DNA of 64,000 nt from Jiangella alkaliphila (GTDB taxonomy: Bacteria; Actinomycetota; Actinomycetes; Jiangellales; Jiangellaceae), in assembly GCF_900105925.1 (NCBI RefSeq), contig NZ_LT629791.1, positions 1,984,001 to 2,048,000 of the forward strand. The letters are read 5' to 3'. Under the pieces are notes generated by a model, which saw nothing but the letters and a program-made list of their open reading frames with translations, did no database searches and was not told the origin of the DNA. Each line of letters begins with the position of its first letter. Positions within the stretch are counted from its first letter, which is position 1. Shown here one piece after another: positions 36,328-57,408 of this stretch. The position numbers and the translations under genes are program-made.

Positions 36328-38274
36328 TCAGGTGGCGCGGCGGTGGACCTGCTTCGCCATGGGCGCCACCACGGTGTACTCGTCGAGGACGTCGTCGCCG
36401 GTGACCCGGACCACGGCGTCGGTGGTGCGCTGGACCAGGTCGTCGCCGTCGCGTTCCAGCGTCCCCGGCACCGGCGCGAGCCCGTTGGCCAGGCTGGCGC
36501 CGAGCGTCAGGACCGGCCACGGTTCCTGCGCGGCGGTCAGCCGGGTCGCCGCGAGCATCGCCGCCACCCCCAGGTCGGCGCCGGGCAGCAGCGGTCCGGG
36601 CAGGCCGGTGTCGAGCGTCGAGCCGTCCAGGGCCGACCAGTGCAGGGCGTAGCCGTCGTCGTCGCGCCGCAGCGACGCCGACTCGAGCCCCTCGGCGCGG
36701 CGCCGCTCGACGTCGGCCGAGACCAGGCGTCCTTCGGCGTCGATGACCGTCGTGCGCGTCTCGGTGCCGTGCCGGGTGGTGAGCTGCTCACGCCAGGTCG
36801 TCGTGTCGGTGTCCGTGCGGGAGGAGACCCTCGTGACGGCGTCGGCCTGCCCGAAGTTCGTCCGCTCGTACTCGCCGAACAGCTGCTCGCCGGGCGGCAC
36901 CGGTTGCAGCGCGGTCCGGTCGGGCCCCGCATGGACCAGCGCCTCGGCCTCCTCCAGCAGCGCGTCCAGCTGCGGCCGCTCCAGCACCGTCCCACCCACG
37001 ACGACGGCGGACGGGTCCTTCAGCGCCGTCACCGACGCGAGCGGCGCACCGGTCACCGCCACCAGGTCGGCGACGAACCCGGTGTCGATGCGGCCCCGAT
37101 CGGTCAGGCCGAGGTAGTCCGCCGCGCCGCGGGTGGCCAGCTCGATGATCTCGGCGCTCGTGTAGCCCGCGCCGGTCATCAGCTCCATCTCCTCGACGAG
37201 CGAGGAACCGTGGAAGACGAACGCGTTGTGGGCGTCGGTGCCGACCAGTACCGGTGCGCCGGCGTCGCGGAGCGCGGCGAGAATGCGCAGGCTGCGCTCG
37301 CGGAAGAGGTCGGCGGTCTGCTGCAGCTCGTCGCGTGACAGCGCCATGATGCGGAAGTCGTTCTCCGGCAGCCAGGTGCGGGCGTGCACAGGGTCGACGT
37401 AGCGCAGGCGCGGGTCGGTGAAGTCGCGCCGCCCCAGGAGGCGGTCGAGGACGATGAGCGTGGGGCAGGAGGTGATGTCGTCGTCGGCCAGGCGCTGGGC
37501 GAGCGCGACGACCTTGCCCTCGTCGAGGTCCGACGCGGCCTGGGCGGCCTCGGGGGTGAACCGGTTCCGTCCCCGGCCGTAGCTGAAGCCCTGGGCGAAG
37601 AGGGCGTCCAGGCGTTCCTGGGCGGCGGGGCGCAGCGACCCGTACTCGTAGTTGTTCAGATGCTCGAACCCGGTCTGGCCGCGGTCGATCGCCTCGTGGA
37701 CGGTGAGCGCCTGGGGACAGTGCCCGACGAGCGGCAGGCCGGTCTCGCGGCAGGCTTCGCCCAGACCCTGCAACGCCTCGCCGGACAGCCACTGGTACGC
37801 CTTGACCTGCTGGTACCCGAGCTCGGCCCAGCGCTTCACGGCCGCATGCGCGGTGGCGCGGTCGGTGATCTGGGCGGAGTCGGGCCACACGGTCGTGCCC
37901 GGCGCCCCGCGGCCGTCGGCCATGGCGGTGCTGGTCACCAGGTGCGGCCCGAGCTCGGCGCCCTCGGCGACCCGGCGGCGCCACGTCAGGTGCCACGGCT
38001 TCCCGCGCATGTTGCGCACCGTCGTGACGCCGTGGGCGAGGTAGTGGAGCATGTCCGCCCGGTCGTCGGCGTGCACGTGGCAGTCGGCGAGACCGGGGAG
38101 GATCGTCCGGTCCCGCCAGTCCACGACCGGACCGGTGACCTGGCCTTCGGTGCGCGGCCGCAGCCCGGTGACGCGGCCGCCGTCGATCGTGATCGCCTGG
38201 TCGTGCAGCACCCCGCGATCGGTCATCGTGAGCACGGTTCCTGCCAGGATGGTCGTGGGGATGGCCTCGTTCAC
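36328..38274 (-). CDS. Metal-dependent amidohydrolase with C-terminal extension
   Basis: Start chosen as GTG at 38274 because GGAGGA stands 7 bases before it; a TTG at 38316 lies further out. 648 residues. Amidohydrolase superfamily: HxH metal ligands His66 and His68 in ADCHVHADD, a Lys in QVKAYQW, His in VGHCPQAL and FEHLNN, and Asp in LVGTDAHN. The barrel resembles Xaa-Pro dipeptidase/imidazolonepropionase relatives. About 200 C-terminal residues (from RTALQPVPPGEQLFG) form a domain I do not recognise. It is divergent from an M19 dipeptidase across a GACCTA-N6-TAGGTC site. A role in removing an acyl cap or cutting a peptide bond is inference. Confidence 0.8.
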   Translation of the reverse strand: MNEAIPTTILAGTVLTMTDRGVLHDQAITIDGGRVTGLRPRTEGQVTGPVVDWRDRTILPGLADCHVHADDRADMLHYLAHGVTTVRNMRGKPWHLTWRRRVAEGAELGPHLVTSTAMADGRGAPGTTVWPDSAQITDRATAHAAVKRWAELGYQQVKAYQWLSGEALQGLGEACRETGLPLVGHCPQALTVHEAIDRGQTGFEHLNNYEYGSLRPAAQERLDALFAQGFSYGRGRNRFTPEAAQAASDLDEGKVVALAQRLADDDITSCPTLIVLDRLLGRRDFTDPRLRYVDPVHARTWLPENDFRIMALSRDELQQTADLFRERSLRILAALRDAGAPVLVGTDAHNAFVFHGSSLVEEMELMTGAGYTSAEIIELATRGAADYLGLTDRGRIDTGFVADLVAVTGAPLASVTALKDPSAVVVGGTVLERPQLDALLEEAEALVHAGPDRTALQPVPPGEQLFGEYERTNFGQADAVTRVSSRTDTDTTTWREQLTTRHGTETRTTVIDAEGRLVSADVERRRAEGLESASLRRDDDGYALHWSALDGSTLDTGLPGPLLPGADLGVAAMLAATRLTAAQEPWPVLTLGASLANGLAPVPGTLERDGDDLVQRTTDAVVRVTGDDVLDEYTVVAPMAKQVHRRAT

Positions 38275-38331
38275 GCGTCCTCCGGGGGCTCTCGGCGCGG
38301 CGCTGGTGGCTGGCAACGGTACAGCAAGTTC

Positions 38332-38349
38332 GACCTATGGCTATAGGTC
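38332..38349. promoter_or_regulatory. GntR-regulon operator, site A
   Basis: GACCTATGGCTATAGGTC, perfect 6-bp arms (7 with a 4-base centre), between the divergent amidohydrolase and M19 dipeptidase genes. Same 18-bp pattern as sites B, D and E. Confidence 0.75.
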
Positions 38350-38401: not shown

Positions 38402-39451
38402 ATGATGACCCCCCAAAATCTGTCTTCTGACATGGTCGTCGACCTGCACAACGACCTGATCCTCCTGGTCGACCACTTCGACCGCCGGGGCCGGCCGGAC
38501 CACTTCGCCGAGTTCTGGCTGCCCGAGCTGCGTGCGGGCGGGGTGAACGTCCAGGTCCTGCCCGTCTTCGTCGAGGAGCAGTTCCAGTCCGAGGGCGCGT
38601 TGCGGCGGACCCTGCTCCTGATCGAGCGGATCCACCGGCTGGCCGCCGAGCACCCGGACGTCCAGGTGTGCCGCACCGGCGCCGACGTCGCCTCGGCGGT
38701 CGCCGCCGGCCGCATCGCGTTCGTCATCGCGCTGGAGGGCGCGCACGCCCTGGGCCAGGACCCGGAGCTGATCGGCACCATGGACAAGGTCGGGGTCCGC
38801 GTGGTCTCCATCGCCCACCTCGGCCGCACGCATCTGGCCGACGGCAGCGGGTTCGACGACACCTCGCGCGGCGGCCTGACCCCGCAGGGGACCGAGGTCC
38901 TCGCCGAGATGGAACGGCTCGGGATCGTCTTCGACATCAGCCACCTCGGCGTCGCCGGCGTCGACGACGTGCTGTCGCGGGCGACCCGTCCGCTGCTCGC
39001 GACCCACTCGGGCTGCCGGGCCGTCACGGACATGCACCGGAACCTCACCGACGACCAGCTCAAGGGCATCGCGGGCCTCGGCGGCGTGATCGGTGTCGCT
39101 GCGGCCATCCCGCCGTTCATCGACCCGGCGCGACCCACGGCCGCCCGGGTGGTCGACCACATCGAGCACATCGCGTCGGTCACCTCGATCGACGCGGTGG
39201 CGCTGGGCCCGGACTTCGTCGACGACTACTTCATGCAGGTCTACGGCGGCCGGATGGTCATCATGGGCGTCGACCTGGAGTTCGCCGACGCCGAGGTGCG
39301 GCGGCCGTCGGACCTTCCGAAGCTCACCGCCGAGATGCGCGCCCGCGGCTTCGCCGAGGACGAGGTCGCCAAGGTGCTGGGCGGCAACGCCATGCGCGTG
39401 CTCGATGACGTGATGGGTGAACCTTCTGGTTCGAAGATGTCCTCGCTCTGA
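38402..39451 (+). CDS. M19 membrane-dipeptidase-type dipeptidase (complete metal site)
   Basis: 349 residues from ATG at 38402; there is no Shine-Dalgarno, so the message may be leaderless. All metal-site motifs of the renal-dipeptidase family are present: His16 and Asp18 in DLHNDL, Glu in IALEGAH, His in DISHLG and His in ATHSGCRAV, and LGPDFVDD for the late Asp. M19 enzymes cleave dipeptides and tolerate D- or dehydro residues at the C-terminal side. In this island it would cut dipeptides that hold Aib. No signal peptide; cytoplasmic. Confidence 0.9.
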   Translation: MMTPQNLSSDMVVDLHNDLILLVDHFDRRGRPDHFAEFWLPELRAGGVNVQVLPVFVEEQFQSEGALRRTLLLIERIHRLAAEHPDVQVCRTGADVASAVAAGRIAFVIALEGAHALGQDPELIGTMDKVGVRVVSIAHLGRTHLADGSGFDDTSRGGLTPQGTEVLAEMERLGIVFDISHLGVAGVDDVLSRATRPLLATHSGCRAVTDMHRNLTDDQLKGIAGLGGVIGVAAAIPPFIDPARPTAARVVDHIEHIASVTSIDAVALGPDFVDDYFMQVYGGRMVIMGVDLEFADAEVRRPSDLPKLTAEMRARGFAEDEVAKVLGGNAMRVLDDVMGEPSGSKMSSL

Positions 39452-39467
39452 CCTATTAGTCTAGGTC
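39450..39467. promoter_or_regulatory. GntR-regulon operator, site B
   Basis: GACCTATTAGTCTAGGTC, perfect 6-bp arms with 6-base spacer, overlapping the last bases of the M19 gene and 59 bases before the ammonia-lyase operon. Confidence 0.75.
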
Positions 39468-39525: not shown

Positions 39526-39924
39526 GTGGAGCCGAGGTCGTTCGACAACGACGAAGCGCTGATCCGACTTCGCCTGGCGCCCAGCGACGCCCGGTACGCC
39601 GGGAACCTGGTCCCGGGATCGAAGGCGATGGAGATCTTCGCCGATCTGGAGACCGAGCTGGCCCTCAAGGAAGGGGGCGACGAGGGTCTGTGCGCGGCGT
39701 ACGAGTCGGTGGAGTTCCTCGCGCCGCTGCGGGCGGGTGACTACGTCGAGGGCATCGCGCGCGTCGTCCACCGCGGCCGGCGCAGCCGAAAGATCGAGGC
39801 GCGGATCTTCAAGGTCATCGGCGTCGACGAGCGTGGCGTGCTGGCGGTCAAGGAGCCGGTGCTCGCGGCCACCGCGGTGGCGACGATCGTCGTGGGCACC
39901 AGCGCCGACGCGGAAGACGCCTGA
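39526..39924 (+). CDS. kal: Hotdog-fold beta-aminoacyl-CoA (3-aminobutyryl-CoA) ammonia-lyase
   Basis: GTG at 39526 after AGGGAGG; 132 residues. The sequence LRLAPSDARYAGNLVPGSK, GDEGLCAAYESVEFLAPLRA, GDYVEG and VKEPVLAATAVATIVV follows closely, as I recall it, the 3-aminobutyryl-CoA ammonia-lyase of lysine-fermenting bacteria and beta-alanyl-CoA ammonia-lyase of Clostridium propionicum. Those are small single-hotdog enzymes that remove NH3 from a beta-aminoacyl-CoA to give an enoyl-CoA. It is first in the operon with an acyl-CoA ligase and a B12-dependent mutase, an arrangement I do not know from any described pathway. A generic thioesterase is the alternative, but the DARYAGN and EFLAP motifs argue against it. 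Confidence 0.82.
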   Translation: MEPRSFDNDEALIRLRLAPSDARYAGNLVPGSKAMEIFADLETELALKEGGDEGLCAAYESVEFLAPLRAGDYVEGIARVVHRGRRSRKIEARIFKVIGVDERGVLAVKEPVLAATAVATIVVGTSADAEDA

Positions 39925-39925: not shown

Positions 39926-41413
39926 GTGACGCCGAGTCCCGCCTCGGTCGTCGCATGGATCGACGCGGTCACGCGGGCCCAGGGTGAGCGTCCGGCCCTG
40001 GTCCACGACGGCATCACCTGGACCTACCGGGACCTCTGGACCCGTGTCGAGGCCGTCGCGCGGCACCTGCTGTCCACGGGACTGCGACCGGCGGACGCGG
40101 TCGGCCTCATGGGCGCCAACGAGCCGGCGTTCGTCGTGAACTACCTGGCGATCATGCGCGCGGGCGGGACCGCGGTCCCGATCAACGGCATGCTCGACGG
40201 CGCGGCCGCCGGCCGGCAGCTCGCCTCCGTCGACGCCACCCGCGTGTTCCTCGGCCGGGTCGACGCCGGCGTCCGCGACGCATTGGCCGAGTCGTTCCGG
40301 ATCCTGCCCATGGACCCGGACGAGCCGCCGCCGGGCCGCGGCCGGTTGCCCGTCGTCGGCGCGAACTCACCCGCCGCGATCATGCTGACCAGCGGCTCGA
40401 CCGGCCACCCGAAGGGCGTCGTACACACTCAGGGCACGATGCTGCACGCCGTCCTGCAGCTCACCTCGGTGTTCCCGTTCCGCCCGGACGACCGTTCCGT
40501 GGTCTTCCTCCCGCTCTACGCGTGCATCCCGGAGCAGGTGCTCCCGGTCCTGTGCACGGGCGGATCGCTGGAGATCCTGCCCCGGTTCGAGGTCGACCGG
40601 GTGGCCGACGCCTGCACGCGCGCGACGACCTTCGACGCCGTCCCCACGATCCTGAGCCGGCTGATCGAGCACGCTCCGCTGCACAAGCTCGCCACCCTGC
40701 GGTGGGTGCTGTTCGCGTCCGAGCCCATGCCGGTGGCGCTGCTGGACCGCTGGTGGGAGGAGCTGCCCGGGGTGGAGATGCACCAGCTGTACGGGATGAC
40801 GGAGGTGCTGCCGCTGTCGGCGGCGCCGCACCGCCTGCTGCGCCAGGACCCGGCCAGCATCGGGCGGGCCTTCCCGACGACCCGGCTCGGCGTCGACCCC
40901 GAGCACCAGGGCGGACCCGGCGGCGGCCGGGAACTGATCGGCGCCAGCCCGGCCCTGATGAAGGGCTACTACAAGGACGAGATCGCCACCAAGGCGGCGA
41001 TCGACGCCGGCGGCGGGATCCGAACCGGCGACCTCGGCCACATCGACGAGCGCGGCATGGTCTACCTGACCGGCCGCAGCAAGGACATCATCATCTCCGG
41101 CGGCATCAACATCGCCCCCGCGGAGATCGAGGCCGTCGCCGCGCGGCACCCGGCGGTGGAGCGGGCGATCGTGGTCGGGGTGCCGAGCGAACGCTGGGGC
41201 GAGACGCCCGTCGTGGTCGCCGTCGCCCGGCCGAGCAGCGCGTTGACCGCGGGCGACCTGCTCGCCCACTGCCGGTCCCTGCTCACGACCTACAAGCGGC
41301 CGACCGGGGCGGGCCTGATCGACAGCCTCCCCACCACCGGCATCGGGAAGACCGCCAAGGACGCGGTGAAGAAGATGATCGTGAACGGGGAGATCGACCT
41401 TGTTCGAATCTGA
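39926..41413 (+). CDS. AMP-forming acyl-CoA ligase, first copy
   Basis: GTG at 39926, one base after the lyase stop; 495 residues. AMP-binding motifs: TSGSTGHPKG (P-loop), YGMTEVLPLS (A5), RTGDLGHIDERG (A7), GRSKDIIISGG (A8) and the catalytic Lys in PTTGIGKTAKDAV. It converts a carboxylic acid, ATP and CoA to the acyl-CoA. By position between lyase and mutase genes its substrate is probably a short branched acid such as 2-aminoisobutyrate or 2-hydroxyisobutyrate. It shares long identical stretches with the ligase at 47267-48739, for example DACTRATTFDAVPTILSRL. Confidence 0.88.
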   Translation: MTPSPASVVAWIDAVTRAQGERPALVHDGITWTYRDLWTRVEAVARHLLSTGLRPADAVGLMGANEPAFVVNYLAIMRAGGTAVPINGMLDGAAAGRQLASVDATRVFLGRVDAGVRDALAESFRILPMDPDEPPPGRGRLPVVGANSPAAIMLTSGSTGHPKGVVHTQGTMLHAVLQLTSVFPFRPDDRSVVFLPLYACIPEQVLPVLCTGGSLEILPRFEVDRVADACTRATTFDAVPTILSRLIEHAPLHKLATLRWVLFASEPMPVALLDRWWEELPGVEMHQLYGMTEVLPLSAAPHRLLRQDPASIGRAFPTTRLGVDPEHQGGPGGGRELIGASPALMKGYYKDEIATKAAIDAGGGIRTGDLGHIDERGMVYLTGRSKDIIISGGINIAPAEIEAVAARHPAVERAIVVGVPSERWGETPVVVAVARPSSALTAGDLLAHCRSLLTTYKRPTGAGLIDSLPTTGIGKTAKDAVKKMIVNGEIDLVRI

Positions 41414-42305
41414 CGAGATCGACGCGCTGGTCGCGAAGGCCCGCCATGGCTACTGGGCGCCGCTGGCCCGGGCGGTGACGGTCGTCGAGAACAGCCCGCC
41501 GTGGGAGGTGTCGATCCCACGCGCGGCGCAGCCCTGCCACATCGTGGGGATCACCGGACCGCCGGGCGCCGGCAAGAGCACCCTCACCGGCCGGCTGATC
41601 GAGTCCTTCGCCGACGACGGGCAACGCGTGGCGGTGCTCGCCATCGACCCGTCCAGCCCGCTCACCGGTGGCGCCGTCCTCGGTGACCGGGTGCGGATGG
41701 AGACCTACCTGAACGGCCGGCCGGGCGTGTTCGTCCGCAGCCTGGCCAGCCGCGGATCCCATGGCGCGGTGGCCGGCTCCACCCGGAACATCGCCCGGTT
41801 GCTGGAGCTGTCGGGCCTGTTCGACATCGTGCTCATCGAGACCGTGGGCGCGGGGCAGACCGAGGTCGCGATCGTCGAGGTCGCCGACACCGTGCTGCTG
41901 GTCACCGTCCCCGGTCTCGGCGACGCCGTGCAGACGATCAAGGCCGGCCTGATGGAGGTCGCCGACGCGTTCATCGTCAACATGGCCGACCGGCCGGGCG
42001 CCGCCGAGACGGCCCGGCACCTGCGGCTGGCCGCCGGGCGGGTCGACGCCGTCTACAAGACCGTCGCCACCGAGGGCACCGGCATCGACAAGCTCCGCGA
42101 CGGGCTCTACGGCCGGTGGCGATCGCTGCGCGACGACGGCCGGCTCGAGGCACGGCGCCTGGAGAAATGGGGCTCCGACGCGGCGCTCGTGGCGGAGGCG
42201 TTTGTCGCCGACTGTGCGGGCTCGATGGCCCTGGATCCGCACGCCACCATGCAGCATTCCGTCGACCAGATCTTGAAGGAGGCGTCGAGCCGATGGACCC
42301 GATGA
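41400..42305 (+). CDS. meaB: MeaB/ArgK-type G-protein chaperone of the B12 mutase
   Basis: TTG at 41400 after GGGGAG, overlapping the ligase gene by 14 bases; 301 residues. P-loop GPPGAGKS at residues 53-60, switch regions DPSSPLTGGAVLGDR and SRGSHGAVAG, and ETVGAGQTEVAIVE, all diagnostic of MeaB. Such GTPases load and protect adenosylcobalamin-dependent acyl-CoA mutases. The usual NKxD guanine motif reads NMAD here (residues 194-197), so the lysine is missing. The stop overlaps the start of the mutase large subunit. Confidence 0.9.
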   Translation: MFESDEIDALVAKARHGYWAPLARAVTVVENSPPWEVSIPRAAQPCHIVGITGPPGAGKSTLTGRLIESFADDGQRVAVLAIDPSSPLTGGAVLGDRVRMETYLNGRPGVFVRSLASRGSHGAVAGSTRNIARLLELSGLFDIVLIETVGAGQTEVAIVEVADTVLLVTVPGLGDAVQTIKAGLMEVADAFIVNMADRPGAAETARHLRLAAGRVDAVYKTVATEGTGIDKLRDGLYGRWRSLRDDGRLEARRLEKWGSDAALVAEAFVADCAGSMALDPHATMQHSVDQILKEASSRWTR

Positions 42306-43981
42306 CCGAGAACGACAAGCGCTGGGACGAGCGCGTCGACGCCTGGACGCGCGACCGGGTCGCCGCCGACTACGGACGGGTCCCGCCGCGGCGCGCGGAG
42401 TACACGACCTTGTCGGGCGCGCCGGTCAAGGACGTCTACACGCACGCGGACCTCCGGGACCTGGATCCCGCCGAGGACATCGGGCTGCCGGGCGAGTACC
42501 CCTACACCCGCGGCGTGCACGCCACCATGTATCGCGGCCGGCCGTGGACGATCCGGCAGGTGGCCGGCTTCGGCCAGGCCGAGGACACCAACAACCGGTA
42601 CAAGTACTTGCTGGAGACCGGCCAGACCGGTCTGTCGACGGACTTCGACCTGCCGACGCTGCTGGGCTACGACTCCGACCACGAGGTCTACCGGCGTGAG
42701 GTCGGCCGCATCGGTGTCGCCGTCGACACCGTCGTCGACATGCACGCCCTCTTCGACGGCATCCCGCTGGACCAGATCTCCACGTCGATGACGATCAACC
42801 CGTCGGCGGCCGTGCTCCTCGCCATGTACCGCGTGGTGGCCGACGAACGGGGCATCTCGGGGAAGGTGCTCACCGGGACCACCCAGAACGACATCCTCAA
42901 GGAGTACATCGCCCAGAACGAGTTCATCTTCCCGCCGCTGCCCTCCGTGCAGCTGGTGGTCGACACGATGGAGTACGGCGCCGACGTCATGCCGCGGTTC
43001 AACCCGCTCAACGTCTGCGGCTACCACATCCGCGACGCGGGGGCGACGGCCGTCGAAGAGGTCGGGCTCACCATCAGCAACGCGCTGTGCTACCTGGAGC
43101 ATGCGATCGAGCGGGGCATCGACGTCGACCGGCTGGCGCCGCGGGTGTCGTTCTTCTGGGACGTGCACAACAACTTCTTCGAGGAGGCCGCCAAGCTCCG
43201 GGCGGCCCGCCGGCTGTGGGCTCGGCTCACCCGCGAACGTCTGGGCGCGAAGGACCCCCGGTCGTGGCTGATGCGGGCGCACTGCCAGACCGCCGGCGTC
43301 TCGCTCACCGCGCAGCAGCCGTACAACAACGTCGCGCGGACGGCGATCCAGGCCCTCGCGGCGGTCTTGGGCGGCACGCAGTCGCTGCACACGAACTCGC
43401 TGGACGAGGCGCTGTCGATCCCGTCGGAGAGCGCCATCAAGATCGCGGTCCGGACCCAGGCGATCATCCTGCACGAGACCGGCGTCGCCGACATCGTCGA
43501 CCCGCTGGCCGGCTCGTACTACGTGGAGTCGCTCACGTCCCAGATCGAGCAGGACGCCCGCGAGCTGATCGAGCGCATCGACGGCATGGGCGGCATGATC
43601 GAGGCGGTGCAGTCGGGCTACGCGGTGCAGTTGATCTCCGACTCGGCCTGGGAGCAGCAGGTCAAGGTCGAGAGCAACGACACGATCACCGTGGGCGTCA
43701 ACGACTACGTCGACGAGAACGAGACCCAGGACCTCGAGATCGACCGGCCGGTGCCGGGCGTCATGGAACGCCAGATGACGCGGCTGGCCGAGGTGAAGCG
43801 GTCGCGTGAGGACCGCCAGGTCACCGCGACGCTCCGGGCGATCGAGAAGGCCGCGCCCGACCTGCACCACAACCTCATGCCGTTGATCGAGGACGCCGTG
43901 CGGGCACGGGCCACGGTCGGCGAGATCTGTGACGTGTTGCGCGGCGTGTGGGGTCACCACCAGCCGTCGACCGTGTTCTGA
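42293..43981 (+). CDS. hcmA: B12-dependent acyl-CoA mutase, large (substrate) subunit, HcmA type
   Basis: ATG at 42293, ten bases after AAGGAGG; 562 residues, the length of stand-alone large subunits without a B12 domain. It follows the methylmalonyl-CoA mutase fold (ATMYRGRPWTIRQ, SFFWDVHNNFFEEAAKLRAA, THS-type HCQTAG, GGTQSLHTNSLDEA). Specificity positions: Val90 (Tyr89 in methylmalonyl-CoA mutase, Ile90 in 2-hydroxyisobutyryl-CoA mutase), Asp117 (Ala116; Asp117 in HcmA), Gln208 (Arg207; Gln in HcmA and isobutyryl-CoA mutase) and His245 (His244, conserved). This excludes a carboxylated substrate and fits a short branched acyl-CoA with an alpha hydroxy or amino group. With the ammonia-lyase next to it, 2-aminoisobutyryl-CoA to 3-aminobutyryl-CoA is my proposal. 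Confidence 0.9.
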   Translation: MDPMTENDKRWDERVDAWTRDRVAADYGRVPPRRAEYTTLSGAPVKDVYTHADLRDLDPAEDIGLPGEYPYTRGVHATMYRGRPWTIRQVAGFGQAEDTNNRYKYLLETGQTGLSTDFDLPTLLGYDSDHEVYRREVGRIGVAVDTVVDMHALFDGIPLDQISTSMTINPSAAVLLAMYRVVADERGISGKVLTGTTQNDILKEYIAQNEFIFPPLPSVQLVVDTMEYGADVMPRFNPLNVCGYHIRDAGATAVEEVGLTISNALCYLEHAIERGIDVDRLAPRVSFFWDVHNNFFEEAAKLRAARRLWARLTRERLGAKDPRSWLMRAHCQTAGVSLTAQQPYNNVARTAIQALAAVLGGTQSLHTNSLDEALSIPSESAIKIAVRTQAIILHETGVADIVDPLAGSYYVESLTSQIEQDARELIERIDGMGGMIEAVQSGYAVQLISDSAWEQQVKVESNDTITVGVNDYVDENETQDLEIDRPVPGVMERQMTRLAEVKRSREDRQVTATLRAIEKAAPDLHHNLMPLIEDAVRARATVGEICDVLRGVWGHHQPSTVF

Positions 43982-43992: not shown

Positions 43993-44424
43993 ATGACCAT
44001 GACATCCGCCACCGGCCGTCAGGCACCGCTGAAGGTCGTCATCGCCAAACCGGGTCTCGACGGGCACGACCGAGGCGCCAAGGTCGTGGCGCGGGCGCTG
44101 CGCGACTCGGGCATGGAGGTCGTCTACACCGGCATCTACCAGACGCCGGAGTCGATCCTGCGCGCGGTCGTGCAGGAGGACGCCGACGTCCTCGGCCTGT
44201 CCAGCCTGTCCGGCGCCCACCTCGAGTACGCCGAGGAGCTGTGCGAGCTGCTGCGCAAGAACGACCGCACCGACGTCCTGTTCGTGGTGGGCGGCACGGT
44301 CCCGCCCGAGGACGCCGAGAAGCTCAAGGGCTTCGGCGTCCACGAGGTGTTCGGGCCCGGCACGCCGACGGCGGAGCTGGTCGCGTACATCGCCGGCAAC
44401 GCGCGGCGGGCACGGCTCGCGTGA
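43993..44424 (+). CDS. hcmB: B12-dependent acyl-CoA mutase, small (cobalamin-binding) subunit
   Basis: ATG at 43993 after AGGAAAGGACG; 143 residues. Cobalamin-binding motifs are complete: DGHDRG (DxHxxG, lower axial His ligand), SSLSG and VVGGTVP. It is a free B12 subunit as in HcmB and IcmB. Gene order large-small and the 11-base gap suggest equal expression. Its stop overlaps the S58 peptidase start (GTGA). Confidence 0.92.
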   Translation: MTMTSATGRQAPLKVVIAKPGLDGHDRGAKVVARALRDSGMEVVYTGIYQTPESILRAVVQEDADVLGLSSLSGAHLEYAEELCELLRKNDRTDVLFVVGGTVPPEDAEKLKGFGVHEVFGPGTPTAELVAYIAGNARRARLA

Positions 44425-45533
44425 CGGCGCGATCCCGCGACCTCGGGATCGTCGTCGGTGCTCTGCCGACCGGCCGGCACAACGCGATCACCGACGTCGG
44501 CGGCGTCCGGGTGGGGCACCACTCGCTGGTGGCCGGTGAGGGAGCGCTGGTCGTGGGCGAGGGGCCGGTGCGCACCGGGGTGACCATCGTCGAACCCCGG
44601 CCGGCGGTCTGGCGGTCGCCGGTCTTCGCCGGACTCCACCGGCTCAACGGCAACGGCGAGATGACCGGGCTGCCGTGGATCCAGGAGAACGGACAGCTCA
44701 CGACCGCGATCGGTCTCACCAACACCCACTCGGTGGGCGTCGTCCGCGACGCGATCGTCGCCCGACTGCACCGCGAGCGGGGCGACGACGAGCTCTACTT
44801 CCACCTGCCCGTCGTGGCGGAGACCTACGACGGCATCCTCAGCGACATCAACGGACAGCACGTCACGGCCGAGCACGTGGACGCGGCCTTCGACGCGCTG
44901 TCCGGCGGCGCCGTGCCGGAGGGGTCGGTGGGCAGCGGGACCGGCATGATCTGCCACGAGTTCAAGGGCGGCATCGGCACGTCGTCGCGGCTGGTCACCG
45001 CCGGCGGCGGGCAGGTCTACACCGTCGGCGTCCTCGTACAGGCCAACCACGGCCGGCGTGGGCGGCTGCGCGTGAACGGCGTGCCGGTGGGCGAGCGGAT
45101 CCCTGCCGACGTCGTCCCCTCGCCGTTCGACGCGGCCATCCGTGCGGCCCGCGGCAGTGGGTCGATCATCGTGCTGATCGCGACGGACGCGCCGCTGCTG
45201 CCGCACCAGTGCGACCGGTTGGCCCAGCGCGCCGCCCTCGGGATCGGCCGCACCGGAGGATCCGGCGAGAACGGCAGCGGCGACCTGATCCTGGCGTTCG
45301 CGACCGGCAACGACGGCCTGCCACGGGTCGGGCTGATCGAGCCGGGCCCGGACGAGATCGAGCTGCGGATGGTCAGCAACGCGGTGGTCAACGGCCTGTT
45401 CGACGCGGTCATCGACGCGACCGAGGAGGCGATCCTGAACGCCATCGTGGCCGCGACGACGTGTGTTGGCCGCGACGGCATCACCGCGGCCGCCCTGGAC
45501 CACGCCCTGCTCCGCGAGGCATACGCCCGGTGA
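44421..45533 (+). CDS. dmpA: S58 DmpA-type aminopeptidase
   Basis: 370 residues from GTG at 44421. Family P1/DmpA marks: ITDVGGVRVGHHSL, IGLTNTHSVGVVRD, GSVGSGTGMICHEFKGGIGTSS (in two motifs), TVGVLVQANHG and IIVLIATDAPLLP. Self-cleavage is expected between Gly247 and Ser248 (GSG-SII), Ser248 then being the N-terminal nucleophile. Known relatives release N-terminal D-Ala, Gly or beta-amino acids from amides and peptides. Within this operon it could release N-terminal Aib. No signal peptide. Confidence 0.92.
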   Translation: MTARSRDLGIVVGALPTGRHNAITDVGGVRVGHHSLVAGEGALVVGEGPVRTGVTIVEPRPAVWRSPVFAGLHRLNGNGEMTGLPWIQENGQLTTAIGLTNTHSVGVVRDAIVARLHRERGDDELYFHLPVVAETYDGILSDINGQHVTAEHVDAAFDALSGGAVPEGSVGSGTGMICHEFKGGIGTSSRLVTAGGGQVYTVGVLVQANHGRRGRLRVNGVPVGERIPADVVPSPFDAAIRAARGSGSIIVLIATDAPLLPHQCDRLAQRAALGIGRTGGSGENGSGDLILAFATGNDGLPRVGLIEPGPDEIELRMVSNAVVNGLFDAVIDATEEAILNAIVAATTCVGRDGITAAALDHALLREAYAR

Positions 45534-47263
45534 CGCCCGACGAGGACGCCGCGTCGCACACCGTGGCCGCTGCGATCGCCGACTACCTGAGCGGTCAGGG
45601 CGTCGAGCGGGTGTTCAGCCTGCCCGGGTCGCACATGAAGCCGATCTGGGCGGAGCTGGCCGGCCGGGGCGTGCGCGTCGTGACGGCGCGGCACGAGGTG
45701 GCCGCCGTGCACATGGCCCAGGCGGAGGCGGACCTGCGCCACCGGCTGGCCGTCGCGATCGTGACCACCGGGCCCGGTCTCACCAACGCGGTGACCGGGA
45801 TCGGCTGCGCCTTCCTCGCCGGCTCGCCCGTGCTGGTGATCTCGACCCGGCCGCCGGACGAGCAGGCCGGCATGGGCGCCCTGGAGGAGATCGACCAGGC
45901 CGCGATCGTCGCGCCGGTCTGCCGCTCGGTGGAGGTCGTCCGCTCGCCCCGCCACGTCGTCGATCGCCTGGACCGCGCCGTGAGCGCCGCGCTGGGCGAC
46001 GACGGACCCGGCGGCCCGGTGTACGTGGAGTTCGGCACCGAGCTGTTGCGCCGGCCGGCCGCCCCGCCGTACACGGCGTATCCGCGCCGGACGCGGGCGC
46101 CGCGACCGCCCGAGCCCGGCGCCGTCGAGCGGGCCGCCGATGCGATCGCGGCGAGCACGCGGCCGCTGGTGCTGGCCGGCCGCGAGGCGCTCACCGTGCC
46201 CGGCCTGCTGGCGCAGTTCGTGCGCGCGACCGGGGCCGTGTATCTGGACACCCGGGCGAGCCGGGGAGCGATGTCCGAGAGCCTCGCCTCGTTCGTGCCC
46301 GCGGCCCGCGCCCGGGCGATGGCCGAGGCGGACCTGGTGATCACGATCGGCCGGCAGCTGGACTTCGAGGTGGCCTACGGTTCCCCGGCGGTGTTCCGGG
46401 CCGCCGAGGGCTTCCTGCGGATCGGCCGGAACTCCGAGGAGGTGCTGGCCAACCGCCGCGGCGACGTCGAGCTGCGCGCCGATCCGCGCTCCGCGCTGGA
46501 GGCCCTCCTGACGGCCGGCGCCACACCGGCCGCACCGGACCACCACTGGCGCGACGACCTCGTGCGGACCAACGCCGGCAAGCGGCGGCGTCTGGCCGAG
46601 ACGATGCGGACCCAGCCGGCCGCGGCCGGCGGGCTCCATCCGTACCAGGTCATCCGTGCGCTCAACGAGCACCTCGACGACGCCGCGATCGTGATCGTCG
46701 ACGGCGGCGACATCCTGTCGTGGTCGCGATCGAGCCTCAAGACGCCGACCTATCTGGACCTCGGCCCGTTCGGCTGCCTCGGCGTGGGTGTGCCGTTCGC
46801 GGTCTCGGCGTCGCTCAACCATCCCGATCGCACGGTCGTCGCGCTCGTCGGGGACGGCGCCCTGGGCTTCAACGTCATGGAACTGGAGACGGCGGTCCGC
46901 GAAGGCGCGCGCTTCGTCGTGGTGGTGGCCGACAACAACGCGTGGAACATCGAACGCGCCGACCAGCTCCAGCACTACCAGGGCAACGTCCTGGGCACGG
47001 AGCTCGGGCCCTGCGCCTGGGACCGGCTGGCCGAGAGCCTCGGCGTCGCCGGATACCGCGCCGGCACCGCGGACGAGCTGAGCGCGGCGCTCGAGGAGGC
47101 CTTCGCCCACGCGCCCGCCCTGGTCGCCGTCAGCGTCTCCCGCGAACCGGTCTCGCCGGACACCAGGAGCGGCCTCGCCCTGGTGCCGGAGTACCACGCG
47201 CTCGCCGCCTGGGACGAGGCGGAACGGACGTGGTTGTCGGGCCGGGCCGATCGGGAGGGCTAG
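45530..47263 (+). CDS. ThDP-dependent enzyme, 2-hydroxyacyl-CoA lyase-like
   Basis: 577 residues from GTG at 45530, overlapping the S58 stop. Three-domain ThDP enzyme: catalytic Glu56 in ARHEVAAVHMA, GPGLTNAVTG, and the cofactor motif GDGALGFN ... ADNN at 441-470. The segment VDGGDILSWSR plus LGPFGCLGVGVPFA resembles acetolactate-synthase-like proteins grouped with 2-hydroxyacyl-CoA lyases and not authentic IlvB. It sits between the peptidase and a second acyl-CoA ligase. Cleaving 2-hydroxyisobutyryl-CoA to acetone and formyl-CoA, known in Actinomycetospora, is one possibility; acyloin formation from acetone-derived units is another. Confidence 0.75.
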   Translation: MTPDEDAASHTVAAAIADYLSGQGVERVFSLPGSHMKPIWAELAGRGVRVVTARHEVAAVHMAQAEADLRHRLAVAIVTTGPGLTNAVTGIGCAFLAGSPVLVISTRPPDEQAGMGALEEIDQAAIVAPVCRSVEVVRSPRHVVDRLDRAVSAALGDDGPGGPVYVEFGTELLRRPAAPPYTAYPRRTRAPRPPEPGAVERAADAIAASTRPLVLAGREALTVPGLLAQFVRATGAVYLDTRASRGAMSESLASFVPAARARAMAEADLVITIGRQLDFEVAYGSPAVFRAAEGFLRIGRNSEEVLANRRGDVELRADPRSALEALLTAGATPAAPDHHWRDDLVRTNAGKRRRLAETMRTQPAAAGGLHPYQVIRALNEHLDDAAIVIVDGGDILSWSRSSLKTPTYLDLGPFGCLGVGVPFAVSASLNHPDRTVVALVGDGALGFNVMELETAVREGARFVVVVADNNAWNIERADQLQHYQGNVLGTELGPCAWDRLAESLGVAGYRAGTADELSAALEEAFAHAPALVAVSVSREPVSPDTRSGLALVPEYHALAAWDEAERTWLSGRADREG

Positions 47264-48745: not shown

Positions 48746-49738
48746 TCAGGCTGTGTGGACGGGCGTCGGCACACCGGCCGCCGGCGCCTGGCCGGGCGAC
48801 GGTGCCGTGCCGCGCTTGAGCTGCTGCATGTCGCGCACGACGTCGCTGACCATGCGGATCGACGCGGCGTCGAGCACGTTGCCGAACCGCATGACCTCGA
48901 CCTTGCCGTCGAGCTGTGCCTCGAGGTCGGTCATCTCGTCGGGGATCACGACCAGGTCGACGCCCTCGAGGTCCTTGTCCTCGATGCCGTCGAGCACCTC
49001 GATGTTCTTGATGCCCGAGTCGCGCAGGGAGTCCCTGACCGTGATGGCCTGCTCGTCGGTGCGGTACCAGATGCCGACCGTCCCGTTCTTCGCCACGGAC
49101 GCGATCTGCACGAGCGTCTGGACGTGCGGGGCGACGACGATGGCGACGACCTCGGTCTTCGGCTGGCGCATGAGCCCGCGCACCTCGGCAAGGTGGAAGA
49201 ACGTCGTGAGTACGAGGTCGGCGCGCTCTTCCTCGGGCTCGAACGTGCCGATGACCAGCGGCTTGACCTTGACGCCGATCTTGTCCTCGAGCTCGTTGGC
49301 GAAGTACTTGGCGCGATCGACGTTGCACTCGACGAACGAGACCTTCAACAGGTCGTCCTCGGCGCGCAGCGCCAGGCTCATCACCAGCGACTGGATCTCG
49401 GCGGCGGACAGGCCGAGCTCGATGCACTCGCGGGTGGCCGCCTCCAGCACCTGCCGGGCCTGGTCGCGGGCCAGCGAGCCCTCGCGCTCGGGCCCGGGTC
49501 CGACGACGATGGTCCCGCTGCGACCGCGCCCCTCGACCAGGCCGATCTCACCGAGTTCGGCATAGGCCCGGGCCACGGTGTTGCGGTTGATGTGCAGGTT
49601 GTCGGCGAGCAGGCGGGCACTGGGCAGGGCCTGGCCGGGCCCGAGGTCGCCGGTCTCGATCATGAAGGACAGCTGCGTGACGATCTGCCGGTAGATCGGC
49701 ACATCGGAGTACAGGCTCACCTGGATCTTGTCGACCAC
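48746..49738 (-). CDS. GntR-family regulator with periplasmic-binding-like effector domain
   Basis: Start chosen as GTG at 49738 (GGGGGAAC upstream; in-frame codon at 49771 lacks one). 330 residues: a YtrA-like winged helix (VPIYRQIVTQLSFMIETGDL, LPSARLLADNLHINRNTVAR split, EGRGRSGTIV), then a domain with strand/helix alternation (VKPLVIGTFEPEEERADLVL, AIVVAPHVQTLVQIAS, VDLVVIPDEMTD) like a ligand-binding Rossmann pair. It lies in the middle of the island and faces the dgdA promoter. It is the best candidate to bind GACCTA-N6-TAGGTC; the ligand may be Aib, an Aib peptide or an acyl-CoA. Confidence 0.88.
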   Translation of the reverse strand: MVDKIQVSLYSDVPIYRQIVTQLSFMIETGDLGPGQALPSARLLADNLHINRNTVARAYAELGEIGLVEGRGRSGTIVVGPGPEREGSLARDQARQVLEAATRECIELGLSAAEIQSLVMSLALRAEDDLLKVSFVECNVDRAKYFANELEDKIGVKVKPLVIGTFEPEEERADLVLTTFFHLAEVRGLMRQPKTEVVAIVVAPHVQTLVQIASVAKNGTVGIWYRTDEQAITVRDSLRDSGIKNIEVLDGIEDKDLEGVDLVVIPDEMTDLEAQLDGKVEVMRFGNVLDAASIRMVSDVVRDMQQLKRGTAPSPGQAPAAGVPTPVHTA

Positions 49739-49801
49739 TGCTCGTTCCCCCTCTACAGGTACACGCAGCACAAGTACACCACTGTTGATGGTGTCCAGTC
49801 G

Positions 49802-51197
<1,396 letters not shown>

Positions 51198-53873: not shown

Positions 53874-53897
53874 GAACCAGTCGATTAGGTCTTGACA
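53874..53897 (+). promoter_or_regulatory. GntR-regulon operator site E abutting a -35 box
   Basis: GAACCAGTCGATTAGGTC (53874-53891) shares 13 identical bases with site D. It is directly followed by TTGACA (53892-53897), a consensus -35 hexamer reading toward the transporter operon. The 246-base gap between the divergent S9 peptidase and first binding-protein gene holds no other clear feature. Confidence 0.7.
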
Positions 53898-54038: not shown

Positions 54039-55694
54039 ATGTCCGAGACGAACTGTGCTCCGAGGCGACGGCGGCGCCGTACGCCGATCGTGTCCTGCGT
54101 TCTCGGCGTGGCACTGCTCGCGGCGTGTGCCGGCGGCGGCGACACCGAGCAGACTCCGGCCAGCGGCAGGGCCGGGCCGGCCTCGATGGCCAGAACGGTG
54201 GAGCCGGGCCAGCCGGTCTCGGACCAGCAGGTCCCGCACCTGAACGTGGGTCTGGCCGGCAAGGTGACGCTCGTCGACCCGGCGGACAACATGGAGTCGG
54301 GCCTCTTCGTCAACCAGCTCGGCCTGGAACCGCTGCTGCGCATCGACCCGGAGGGTCAGCTGCAGCCGTGGCTGGCCACGGAGTGGGAGCAGGTCAGCGA
54401 CACCGTCTACGAGTACACGCTGCGCGAGGGCGTGACGTTCTGGGACGGCACCGAGCTGACCGCGGAGGACGTCAAGTACTCCTGGGACCACCTGCGGGCG
54501 CCGGAGAGTCGGCGGGCCAACTACTTCGCCACGGTGGATACCGTCGAGGCCGTGGACCCGTACACGGTGCGGGTCACGCTGACGCAGCCGGACGCGTCAT
54601 GGCAGTACACACCGGCCATGTGGTACTCGGTGATCTTCCAGAAGACGTTCGCCGAAGAGGCCGGAGACTCCTTCGGCCAGCCGGGCACGCTGCTCGTGGC
54701 GACCGGTCCGTGGAAGTTCGACAGCGTCAACCCGGCCACCGGCATGGAGCTGTCGGCCCACGAGGACTACTGGGGCGGCAAGCCCCCGGTCGACCGGATC
54801 TCCATCAAGGCCTTCGCCGACGACAACAGCATGGCGCTGGCGCTGCGGGCCGGCGAGATCGACATCACCCCGACGGTGGCGGGACCCACAGGCTTCGACG
54901 CCGCCGCCGGCGGCAACTCCGTCACGACGGTGCAGACCTGTGCCAACACGCTGCTCAGCATTCCGACCCAGAGCGAGCCGTGGACCGACGTCCACGTGCG
55001 CCGGGCGGTCGCGTACGCGATCAACCAGGACGACATCATCGCGGCGGCCCAGGGCGCCGCGGCCGGGCCGGCCGAGCACCTGATCTCGGACCAGCTGCTG
55101 CGGACACTCGGCTCCGACGAGGAGGTCGACGCGGCGCTGGACAGGGTACGGACCTATGCGTTCGACGTGGAGGCCGCCGAGGGCGAGCTGGCCCAGTCGT
55201 CGGTCCCGGACGGGTTCGCCTACGACCTCACGGTCACCGCCACCTCCGCCCCGATGGCCGAGGTGATCGCGGCACAGCTGGGCGAGATCGGCATCGACCT
55301 CACCGTCGCGGTGCTCCCGGACACCGCGTACTACGCCGCCCTCGGCGAGGACGAGAAGCCGCTGACGTTCTTCCAGACCGGTCCCTGCTCACCCGACCCG
55401 AGCTGGGCCGCCCTGTTCATGGACACCGACGCGGCCGGGCAGCCGGTCGGGCTGAACTTCGCCGAGTACGCGCCGCCGGAGGTGACGCAGCTGCTCGCCG
55501 ACGGGTTGCTGGAGCAGGACCCGAAGGAGCGGCTGGGGATCTACGCGGAGGTCCTCGGACACCTGGGCGAGGACGTTCCCTACGTGCCGCTCTACGCCGA
55601 GGGCAACACCTACGGCTCGACCGAGTACGACCTGGTCGAGTTCAGCAGCTTCTGGTCGAACCTGCCCTGGGTGCTGAGCCTCGTCCCCAAGTAG
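54039..55694 (+). CDS. Peptide ABC transporter substrate-binding lipoprotein, copy 1
   Basis: 551 residues with a lipoprotein signal ending LLAACAGGG. SBP_bac_5 (DppA/OppA) fold: LGLEPLLRID, LATEWEQVSDTVYEYTLREG, TFWDGTELTAEDVKYSWDHL, ATGPWKFDSVNP, VHVRRAVAYAINQDDI. It captures peptides outside the cell. It is the first of three tandem paralogues before one permease set. There is little Shine-Dalgarno before its ATG, unlike the other two copies. Confidence 0.92.
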   Translation: MSETNCAPRRRRRRTPIVSCVLGVALLAACAGGGDTEQTPASGRAGPASMARTVEPGQPVSDQQVPHLNVGLAGKVTLVDPADNMESGLFVNQLGLEPLLRIDPEGQLQPWLATEWEQVSDTVYEYTLREGVTFWDGTELTAEDVKYSWDHLRAPESRRANYFATVDTVEAVDPYTVRVTLTQPDASWQYTPAMWYSVIFQKTFAEEAGDSFGQPGTLLVATGPWKFDSVNPATGMELSAHEDYWGGKPPVDRISIKAFADDNSMALALRAGEIDITPTVAGPTGFDAAAGGNSVTTVQTCANTLLSIPTQSEPWTDVHVRRAVAYAINQDDIIAAAQGAAAGPAEHLISDQLLRTLGSDEEVDAALDRVRTYAFDVEAAEGELAQSSVPDGFAYDLTVTATSAPMAEVIAAQLGEIGIDLTVAVLPDTAYYAALGEDEKPLTFFQTGPCSPDPSWAALFMDTDAAGQPVGLNFAEYAPPEVTQLLADGLLEQDPKERLGIYAEVLGHLGEDVPYVPLYAEGNTYGSTEYDLVEFSSFWSNLPWVLSLVPK

Positions 55695-55706
55695 AGGAGT
55701 GAACGC

Positions 55707-57371
55707 ATGTCCGATGCGACGAGAACCAGGGGACGGCACGGACGCCGGGCGTGGCTCGTGGCCGGTCTGCTCACCACGGCGCTGGTCACGGCCTGTGCGG
55801 GGAACGACTCCGCGGGTGGCCGCGACGGGGCGGCCGGGGACGGTGAGCGGCCGGCGGACACGGCGCGGACGGTGGCTCCGGGCGCACCGGTCTCCGACGA
55901 GCACATCGAGCTGCTCACGGTGGGCATCCCCGGCAAGGTGACGCTGGTCGACCCGGCGGACAACATGGAAGCGGGCCTCAACGTCAACCAGCTCGGCCTG
56001 GAGCCGCTGCTGCGGATCGCACCGGACGGGAGCCTGCAGCCGTGGCTGGCCACCGAGTGGGAACAGGTCAGCGACACCGTCTACGAGTACACGCTGCGCG
56101 ACGGCGTCACGTTCTGGGACGGCACCGAGCTGACCGCCGAGGACGTCAAGTACTCCTGGGACCACCTGCGGGCGCCAGAGAGCCGGCGCGCGACGTACTT
56201 CGCCGCGGTCGACACCGTCGAGGCCGTCGACGCCGACACGGTGCGGGTGACCCTGAAGCAGCCGGACGCGTCATGGCAGTACACACCGGCCATGTGGTAC
56301 TCGGTGATCTTCCAGAAGAAGTTCGCCGAGGAGACCGGGGAGGCGTTCGGCCAGCCGGGCACCCTCCTGGTGGCGACCGGTCCGTGGAAGTTCGACAGCG
56401 TCAACCCGGCCAGCGGGATGGAGCTGTCCGCGTACGACGACTACTGGGGCGGCACCCCGCCGATCGACCGGATCTCGGTGAGGTCGTTCGCCGACGACAA
56501 CAGCATGGCGCTGGCGCTGCGGGCCGGTGAGATCGACCTCGCACCCGTCGTCGGCGGGCCGACCGGCTTCGACGCCGCCGCCGGCGGCAACACGGTGACG
56601 ACGGTGGAGACCTGCGGCACCGCCAGGATGAGCCTGCCGACGCGGCGGGCGCCGTGGGACGACGTGCACGTGCGCCGGGCGGTCGCGTACGCGATCAACC
56701 GGGACGACATCGTCGCCGCCGCCCAGGGCTCCGCGGCCGGACCCGCGGTGTACGCGATCGCCCCGCAGTTGTTCCGGACGCTCGGCAGCGAGGAGGAGGT
56801 CCAGGCCGCGCTGGAGGAGATCGAGACCTATCCGTTCGACCTCGACGCGGCCCGGGCCGAGCTGGCCCAGTCGTCGGTCCCGGACGGGTTCAGCTTCGAC
56901 CTCACCATTCCTCCGTCCTCCGCCGCCATCGCCGAGGTGATCGCCGCTCAGCTGGGCGAGATCGGGATCGACATCTCCGTCGAGGTGCTCCCGGACACGG
57001 CCTGGTACGCCGCCCTCCGCGAGGACGTCCGGCCGCTGACGTTCTCCGCGACGGGCGCCTGCACGCCGGACCCGGACTGGGACTCGATCTTCTTCGACAC
57101 CGACGAGGCCGGTGAGCCGATCGGGCTGAACATGGCCCAGTACTCCTCGCCGGAGGTCACCGGCCTGTGGGCCGAGGGCCTGCTGGAGCAGGACCCGGCG
57201 CAGCGGTTGCGGATCTACACGGACCTGCAGAAGCAGGTCGCCGAGGACGTCCCCTACATCTCCCTGTTCGCCGAGGGGACGACGTACGCCTCCACCACGT
57301 ACGACCTCGTCGAATACCACAGCTACTTCTGGATGAACCTTCCCTGGGCGCTGAACCTGGTGCCGAAATGA
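55707..57371 (+). CDS. Peptide ABC transporter substrate-binding lipoprotein, copy 2
   Basis: 554 residues; signal ends ALVTACAGND. Very close to copy 1 through the central region (EWEQVSDTVYEYTLR, TFWDGTELTAEDVKYSWDHL, SWQYTPAMWYSVIFQKKF). The ligand-facing part differs (LAPVVGGPTGFDAAAGGN, TVETCGTARMSLPTRRAPW). The leader GAGGAGTGAACGCATGTCCG is repeated almost exactly before copy 3, a trace of duplication including the ribosome-binding site. Gap to copy 1 is 12 bases. Confidence 0.92.
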   Translation: MSDATRTRGRHGRRAWLVAGLLTTALVTACAGNDSAGGRDGAAGDGERPADTARTVAPGAPVSDEHIELLTVGIPGKVTLVDPADNMEAGLNVNQLGLEPLLRIAPDGSLQPWLATEWEQVSDTVYEYTLRDGVTFWDGTELTAEDVKYSWDHLRAPESRRATYFAAVDTVEAVDADTVRVTLKQPDASWQYTPAMWYSVIFQKKFAEETGEAFGQPGTLLVATGPWKFDSVNPASGMELSAYDDYWGGTPPIDRISVRSFADDNSMALALRAGEIDLAPVVGGPTGFDAAAGGNTVTTVETCGTARMSLPTRRAPWDDVHVRRAVAYAINRDDIVAAAQGSAAGPAVYAIAPQLFRTLGSEEEVQAALEEIETYPFDLDAARAELAQSSVPDGFSFDLTIPPSSAAIAEVIAAQLGEIGIDISVEVLPDTAWYAALREDVRPLTFSATGACTPDPDWDSIFFDTDEAGEPIGLNMAQYSSPEVTGLWAEGLLEQDPAQRLRIYTDLQKQVAEDVPYISLFAEGTTYASTTYDLVEYHSYFWMNLPWALNLVPK

Positions 57372-57408
57372 CCGCGCCGCGCGGCGTGCTCAGACGAGGA
57401 GTGAGCGC

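Follow-up and report, generated by a model that had tools for sequence, protein, structure and literature searches.

Ammonia-lyases of the KAL/Bal family, hotdog-fold enzymes that include the lysine-fermentation enzyme 3-aminobutyryl-CoA ammonia-lyase (KAL) and beta-alanyl-CoA ammonia-lyase (Bal), act on beta-aminoacyl-CoA. The B12-dependent 2-hydroxyisobutyryl-CoA mutase (HCM) converts 2-hydroxyisobutyryl-CoA to 3-hydroxybutyryl-CoA, and the Aib-CoA (2-aminoisobutyryl-CoA) rearrangement considered below would be the amino analogue of this reaction. Fungal peptide antibiotics (peptaibols) contain Aib, which is also present in carbonaceous meteorites. In the accessible part of PMC7782822, 2,2-dialkylglycine decarboxylase (DGD), with Aib as known substrate, is named as the only enzyme previously known to act on Aib, and a monooxygenase (AibH1H2) route is described; neither route, as presented there, uses CoA activation, B12 or an ammonia-lyase. 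The locus described here, for which the same substrate is proposed and which contains DGD itself, would differ from them on all three points. A CoA or B12 route for Aib was not found in the open-licence literature, covered mostly by titles and the beginnings of abstracts, and this is not a proof of absence.

The window, i.e. the whole 64,000-nucleotide stretch analysed, belongs to the 7.7-Mb single-contig genome of Jiangella alkaliphila. It carries an operon at 39526-48739 encoding a KAL homologue, a first acyl-CoA ligase, a MeaB-type GTPase, the large and small subunits of a mutase, an S58 peptidase, a thiamine diphosphate (TPP) lyase and a second ligase. The operon genes overlap or are spaced by at most about 11 nt: the KAL stop codon ends at 39924 and the GTG of ligase 1 lies at 39926, while the ligase/MeaB and MeaB/mutase frames overlap. 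A sigma-70 scan of 38300-51300 gave no promoter-like site. The genes of the operon and its surroundings are the following.

36328..38316, minus strand: amidohydrolase-superfamily protein (putative peptidase/deacylase), divergent from the dipeptidase; Pfam PF01979, 4.9e-19
38402..39451, plus strand: M19 membrane-type dipeptidase; Pfam PF01244, 6.7e-81
39526..39924, plus strand: KAL-type beta-aminoacyl-CoA ammonia-lyase homologue; NF052388 and, by profile, 4mtu
39926..41413, plus strand: AMP-forming acyl-CoA ligase 1, proposed Aib-CoA ligase; Pfam PF00501/PF13193 (on the longer frame 39737-41413)
41400..42305, plus strand: MeaB-type mutase chaperone GTPase; TIGR00750, 242.2 bits, above the cut-off of 240.75
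42293..43981, plus strand: B12-dependent acyl-CoA mutase large subunit, HCM-like, V90/Q95/D117/Q208; 4r3u, 576 bits
43993..44424, plus strand: B12-binding small mutase subunit; TIGR00640, 158.5 bits, above the cut-off of 57.45
44421..45533, plus strand: S58 (DmpA/BapA-type) aminopeptidase; PF03576, 9.6e-108; 5tzb, 1b65, 3n2w
45530..47263, plus strand: TPP-dependent lyase, 2-hydroxyacyl-CoA lyase (HACL) homologue; NF058623, 7pt1 alignment, residues
47267..48739, plus strand: AMP-forming acyl-CoA ligase 2, 59% identical to ligase 1
48746..49771, minus strand: GntR-family regulator; PF00392, 1.6e-14
49896..51197, plus strand: DGD; 1d7r, 616.5 bits
51831..53792, minus strand: S9 prolyl-oligopeptidase-family peptidase; PF00326, 2.4e-41
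54039..60889, plus strand: peptide ABC transporter, three substrate-binding proteins and two permeases; PF00496 three times, PF00528 twice

Considering that an HCM-type mutase makes a 3-substituted butyryl-CoA from a 2-substituted isobutyryl-CoA and that a KAL-type enzyme removes a 3-amino group, the simplest substrate for both together would be 2-aminoisobutyryl-CoA. We propose that 2,2-dialkylglycines, chiefly Aib and perhaps isovaline, would be imported in peptide form and released by peptidases, and that ligase 1 would convert Aib to Aib-CoA. The HCM-like mutase would then act on Aib-CoA by moving its CoA-thioester carbonyl to a methyl group, yielding 3-aminobutyryl-CoA, a step that we infer from the mutase family, Asp117 and the gene context. 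KAL, as the last dedicated step, would by its family release ammonia to give crotonyl-CoA, which would enter beta-oxidation. Alongside, DGD would degrade Aib by the route already known, to acetone, CO2 and alanine. Whether an Aib-CoA mutase followed by KAL is the pathway of this operon is, in our judgement, evenly balanced.

The KAL open reading frame begins with GTG, is closely preceded by AGGGAGG and encodes 132 residues, with the motifs DARYAGN, GDEGLCAAYESVEFLAP and GDYVEG on which the first-pass annotation had based its assignment to the beta-aminoacyl-CoA ammonia-lyases. The NCBIfam model for 3-aminobutyryl-CoA ammonia lyase (NF052388) matches it with E=2.7e-32, at 111.6 bits against a curated equivalog cut-off of 160, and this shortfall counts against the route through 3-aminobutyryl-CoA. 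Pfam returned just the generic 4HBT thioesterase superfamily, which would agree with an acyl-CoA thioesterase. Among solved structures, a search with the single sequence placed a beta-alanyl-CoA ammonia-lyase first (3.1e-11), thioesterase-like chains following from 7.3e-7, and a profile of 25 sequences (that of the window and 24 relatives) widened this to 5.8e-31 for the ammonia-lyase 4mtu versus 4.3e-9 for the next chain, which is thioesterase-like. Thioesterases are thus not the closest relatives, the case in which the first-pass assignment was to be given up, and we rejected a thioesterase identity, which is extremely unlikely.

By HMM and by solved structure, the protein is closest to the KAL and Bal enzymes, and sixteen positions are invariant in the 25 aligned rows (A22, Y24, G26, G31, F38, T43, G51, E53, L55, Y59, F64, P67, G71, D72, E75 and R88). 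It lies nevertheless on a separate branch, with 37-47% identity to the 17 more distant aligned rows; the quick tree, from which five rows (L014-L018, same genomes as L050, L009, L051, L010 and L052) had been removed, places it apart from the ordinary KALs, with many weak forks and long branches. Very likely, then, the protein is a beta-aminoacyl-CoA ammonia-lyase homologue of the KAL family, in a subfamily apart from the lysine-pathway KALs, from which it also differs by scoring under the equivalog cut-off and by its neighbourhood: neither KamDE, KDD nor any other lysine-pathway gene occurs among the proteins scanned in 32167-60889. A role in lysine fermentation was rejected on this ground. 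Glu63, which aligns with Glu58 of Bal, was dropped as a diagnostic residue since it varies among KALs: six KALs adjoining lysine genes have four Gln, one Asp and one Ala at this position, and the S. samsunensis protein has Gln. L008, L013 and the window's own copy had been removed before assembling the KAL set.

The statement in the first-pass annotation that such lyases are known mainly from anaerobes does not hold for this class, in which 79 of 393 sampled genomes contain a KAL homologue at E<=1e-12. The close subfamily accounts for 6 of the 79, the window included, all of its genus; the other 73 are more distant, with 32-51% identity among the matches listed. Thirty distant loci were fetched and one neighbouring open reading frame was examined in each of ten: six encode lysine 5,6-aminomutase subunits or 3,5-diaminohexanoate dehydrogenase and four other proteins. 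Because six of these ten neighbours are lysine-pathway proteins, a lysine pathway is the probable setting of the ordinary actinobacterial KAL.

Seven other genomes conserve the window KAL with 70-84% identity: five congeners, Streptomyces samsunensis and one Actinomycetota metagenome-assembled genome (MAG). In all eight KAL-bearing genomes read (the window, L009, L010, L050, L051 and L052, all Jiangella; S. samsunensis, L011; MAG SZAS-9, L012) the order KAL, ligase 1, MeaB, large subunit, small subunit is identical. The association of the lyase with a B12 acyl-CoA mutase, already noticed in the first-pass annotation, is real; the fixed order supports Aib as the substrate. The S58 gene is found in seven of the eight and is absent from L012. 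The HACL gene comes next in the six Jiangella genomes, is divergent in L012 and lies on the same contig in S. samsunensis. The GntR gene adjoins the operon in Jiangella and in S. samsunensis; in the window protein the C-terminal part (about 250 residues) has no Pfam match. In S. samsunensis, an integrase-core protein encoded at L011:430-1413 suggests mobility. In the MAG, a single open reading frame (L012:2776-3687) fuses an N-terminal RidA domain (PF01042) to a C-terminal KAL, which may point to imine or enamine handling.

Among solved structures, the mutase large subunit is closest to 2-hydroxyisobutyryl-CoA mutase (4r3u, 576 bits), methylmalonyl-CoA mutase scoring 492. Residues were numbered on the true HCM of Xanthobacter Py2 (1043 bits to 4r3u), and the window's own copy L049 was removed before the alignments. 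Of 21 mutases compared, D117 is confined to the two HCMs and the nine members of the window's clade, all nine of which also have V90, Q95 and Q208; the ten others all have A117, five of them with R208. Asp117 and Gln208 (HcmA numbering) are therefore those expected of an HCM in 9/9 clade members, while Ile90 is replaced by Val90 in all nine. The clade is sister to HCM with an SH-aLRT of 95 in a quick tree of only 21 rows. This grouping, with D117 and Q208 kept, supports the Aib-CoA step, and a methylmalonyl- or isobutyryl-CoA mutase identity was rejected on the residues. The same genome has two other mutases, Y90/A117/R208 and F90/A117/Q208, which are MCM-like and ICM-like residue sets; the first fits HCM and MCM structures about equally.

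Like the HcmAB/MeaH operons of Aquincola, Methylibium and Xanthobacter, the window operon joins ligase, GTPase and mutase, has D117 and Q208 and lies near a GntR gene. It differs in that the mutase is 46-49% identical and has Val90 and Gln95, the small subunit comes last and not first, the ligase is of another family and KAL stands at the head. The first-pass annotation is supported on the lyase and on its operon link with a mutase, and not on the anaerobes; it overlooked the HCM type of the mutase, and also the surrounding island (DGD, peptidases, peptide transporter and the shared operator-like sites described below), which points to Aib and not to lysine or beta-alanine.

Few close relatives of this mutase emerged from a broader sampling. 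At E<=1e-200, one of 396 genomes of the phylum matched, the window's own; at E<=1e-190, none of 392 genomes matched in the genus of G018 (presumed Streptomyces) in a search without positive control, and 4 of 299 did in the class of the MAG, two of them (54-55% identity) with F90/A117 and outside the clade. None of the 374 plasmid records matched by the mutase reached 60% identity. One clade member, in genome G1293, has V90/Q95/D117/Q208 in an operon (L088:2249-8435) with an acyl-CoA dehydrogenase in front, then a ligase (split over two frames), MeaB, the mutase and its small subunit. In G1293, KAL was not found at E<=1e-6 and no DGD match exceeded 41% identity, which counts against Aib as the substrate; either its mutase has a different substrate or genes are missing from its genome record. 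The mutase residues alone consequently do not imply an amino substrate, and V90/D117 were dropped as proof of one. Among the nine mutase-clade genomes, eight have both KAL and DGD and one has neither, a joint variation that agrees with an Aib-specific version of the operon and does not prove it.

We also considered 2-hydroxyisobutyrate (2-HIBA) catabolism, with KAL incidental, since in the accessible part of PMC7176365 both the mutase and the lyase families are known from that pathway. At E<=1e-20, nothing in the window matched the 2-HIBA-CoA ligases (HCL) of Methylibium and Xanthobacter, so that the operon lacks the ligase expected beside an HCM; ligases 1 and 2 do not resemble them (best BLAST E 0.009). 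Nor did a single query with the 3-hydroxybutyryl-CoA dehydrogenase of Methylibium PM1 match the window at this threshold. The Methylibium PM1 HCM region has the ligase in the operon and the dehydrogenase gene about 4.5 kb further; that of Xanthobacter Py2 has the ligase and no annotated 3-hydroxybutyryl-CoA dehydrogenase, which makes the missing dehydrogenase a weak argument. Together with the retention of KAL in the eight genomes read, these ligase results make a 2-HIBA operon quite improbable. The position of KAL, in place of HCL and 3-hydroxybutyryl-CoA dehydrogenase, is in turn what would be expected of a route through Aib-CoA. On the other side, no amino-acid signature was identified in the window ligase, which counts against that route.

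The DGD of the island matches 1d7r with 616.5 bits, against 225 for the next family, and the alignment keeps Q52, W138, M141, S215, K272 and R406 of 1d7r, which we take to be active-site residues. Fourteen genomes were searched for DGD and HACL (six congeners with KAL, six without, S. samsunensis and the MAG). Eight of the 14 gave a DGD match at E<=1e-100; they are the eight KAL-bearing genomes, each with at least 61% identity, and the six congeners without KAL gave none. This co-occurrence with an enzyme whose known substrate is Aib supports the proposed route; the counts are not independent, because there are only eight genomes and six are of one genus. An alanine dehydrogenase adjoins DGD in three of the eight (L009/L058, L010/L061 and L060), where it would suit a DGD cycle through pyruvate and alanine, and with the RidA-KAL fusion of the MAG it adds support for Aib. 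No alanine dehydrogenase was matched near DGD in L057, L059, L062, L063 or the window; this absence in five of eight genomes, where the enzyme is expected with DGD, counts against it.

A palindrome of operator-like form links several of these genes. In the window, its copies are as follows, none having a strand.

38332..38349: operator-like palindrome GACCTA-N6-TAGGTC, exact, between the amidohydrolase and M19 genes
39450..39467: second exact copy, centred about 68 nt before the KAL start
49851..49868: degenerate copy (2 mismatches, mismatch scan) before DGD
53874..53891: degenerate copy (2 mismatches, mismatch scan) between the S9 and DppA genes

The exact motif occurs at just these two places in the 7.7-Mb genome, before the dipeptidase and before the KAL operon, versus one for a reversed control pattern. 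Allowing up to two mismatches, the window contains six sites (mean 0.88 and at most 4 in 100 shuffles), of which four are additional to the exact copies: the two degenerate copies listed and two inside genes. Before M19, the palindrome is exact in L010 and L051 and has one mismatch in L052, which also has a 2-mismatch copy before DppA; near M19 in L009 there is none at up to two mismatches. The relaxed motif GRCCTA-N6-TAGGYC gave 14 hits in 14 cluster-related loci (287,420 bases), where none was expected from 60 Markov copies of the window. Six precede KAL, in all six KAL-bearing Jiangella; four precede DGD; three precede M19 (window, L010, L051); and one precedes the ligase-HACL pair of S. 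samsunensis, whose ligase start is uncertain. DGD is preceded by the motif in the five other KAL-bearing Jiangella (L057-L061) and by its degenerate form in the window. In other fetched loci, the motif was found only at KAL, M19 or DGD of the same Jiangella genomes.

The shared palindromes suggest a single regulon in Jiangella, of which the adjacent GntR protein is possibly the regulator, and their position before both KAL and DGD supports Aib as the common substrate. Seven of the 14 loci, L011, L012, L079 and L088 among them, have no such motif; its absence before KAL or DGD in S. samsunensis (L011) and in the MAG (L012) counts against this substrate.

In and around the operon lie peptidases of the M19, S58 and S9 families, the amidohydrolase and a peptide ABC transporter, which again supports Aib, here in peptide form. 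The amidohydrolase scores 78.6 bits with the NCBIfam Xaa-Pro dipeptidase model, far below the cut-off of 500, and is matched beside the cluster in L009, L010, L051 and L052. L009 adds a gamma-glutamyltranspeptidase and a DUF885 protein, both also matched in L010, L051 and L052. On the S. samsunensis contig there are, besides an M19 orthologue, two more M19 proteins, one S10-like peptidase, two S9 peptidases and a pair of TAP-like hydrolases; L078:1-18000 and L011 are dense in M19, S9, S10-like and TAP-like peptidases. At 54039-59064 of the window, three tandem paralogous peptide-binding proteins are followed by one permease pair. This set fits peptide-bound Aib, as in peptaibols, and the island as a whole likely serves dialkylglycine peptides.

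The same peptidases could instead free beta-amino acids, which a ligase would convert to CoA esters for direct deamination by KAL, the mutase serving another branch. S58 enzymes include beta-aminopeptidases, the S58 protein matches beta-peptidyl aminopeptidases and the KAL/Bal family acts on just such thioesters; the closest match of the S58 protein is nonetheless a D-aminopeptidase, the mutase would be left without a task, and DGD, an enzyme of alpha,alpha-dialkyl amino acids, is co-distributed and apparently co-regulated with KAL. Beta-amino-acid catabolism is thus rather improbable here. Lyases of the KAL type being reversible, KAL might also add ammonia to an enoyl-CoA and provide a beta-amino acid for a natural product; this is very unlikely, considering that the proteins scanned in 32167-60889 include no biosynthetic assembly genes and that peptidases and an importer indicate degradation.

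The TPP lyase is assigned to the actinobacterial 2-hydroxyacyl-CoA lyases (NF058623, 610.7 bits, above the curated cut-off of 600). At E<=1e-60, it occurs in all eight cluster genomes, the S. samsunensis copy at 51% identity, and in none of the six congeners without KAL. The route through Aib-CoA does not need this enzyme, and its constancy counts against that route. It would have a role in an acetone salvage, in which DGD gives acetone, the TPP enzyme joins it with formyl-CoA to form 2-hydroxyisobutyryl-CoA, the mutase forms 3-hydroxybutyryl-CoA and KAL is accessory. A route of this kind is proposed for sulfate reducers and described for Desulfosarcina cetonica in the accessible part of PMC7888143. 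Such a salvage would also explain a mutase closest to HCM and make a 2-HIBA ligase unnecessary. However, KAL and ligase 1, at the head of the operon and retained together with the mutase in all eight genomes, would have no task, and the window gave no 3-hydroxybutyryl-CoA dehydrogenase match in the query above.

The lyase residues also speak against acetone salvage. In the accessible part of PMC8760513, Gln128 of the actinobacterial 2-hydroxyacyl-CoA lyase AcHACL contacts the substrate carbonyl and the water molecule held by the tertiary alcohol. The six cluster copies compared (window, L009, L010, L050, L012 and S. samsunensis), down to about 50% identity, all have Glu in place of Gln128 and Ser in place of Gly43, whereas Gln and Gly stand at these positions in AcHACL and in the TPP enzyme of Methylibium. 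The catalytic Glu493 is kept, as are I492, L127, H44, T88 and E65, and the lyase gene directly precedes a ligase gene as in the AcHACL lyase-HCL cluster, the ligase here not being HCL. On balance, we regard acetone salvage as unlikely. Near the mutase in the Methylibium PM1 HCM region, L068:11568-13328 encodes a TPP enzyme that shares 44% identity with the window HACL.

Glu128 and Ser43 hint, speculatively, at a changed 2-substituent of the substrate, perhaps an amino group. The TPP enzyme might then be a 2-aminoacyl-CoA lyase that splits Aib-CoA into formyl-CoA and acetone imine, a reaction with which the RidA domain of the MAG's KAL fusion would also agree; this, too, we consider unlikely.

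The most novel form of the preferred reading is a third Aib route, one without oxygenase, in which a B12-dependent 2-aminoisobutyryl-CoA mutase would form 3-aminobutyryl-CoA and KAL would convert it to crotonyl-CoA; we place it slightly short of an even chance. If it is correct, a soil bacterium breaks down Aib in a new way, by a B12 rearrangement followed by ammonia removal. A carbon-skeleton mutase acting on a 2-aminoacyl-CoA would extend the chemistry of the B12 acyl-CoA mutases to quaternary amino acids, and in reverse the Aib-CoA mutase reaction would give enzymatic access to Aib.
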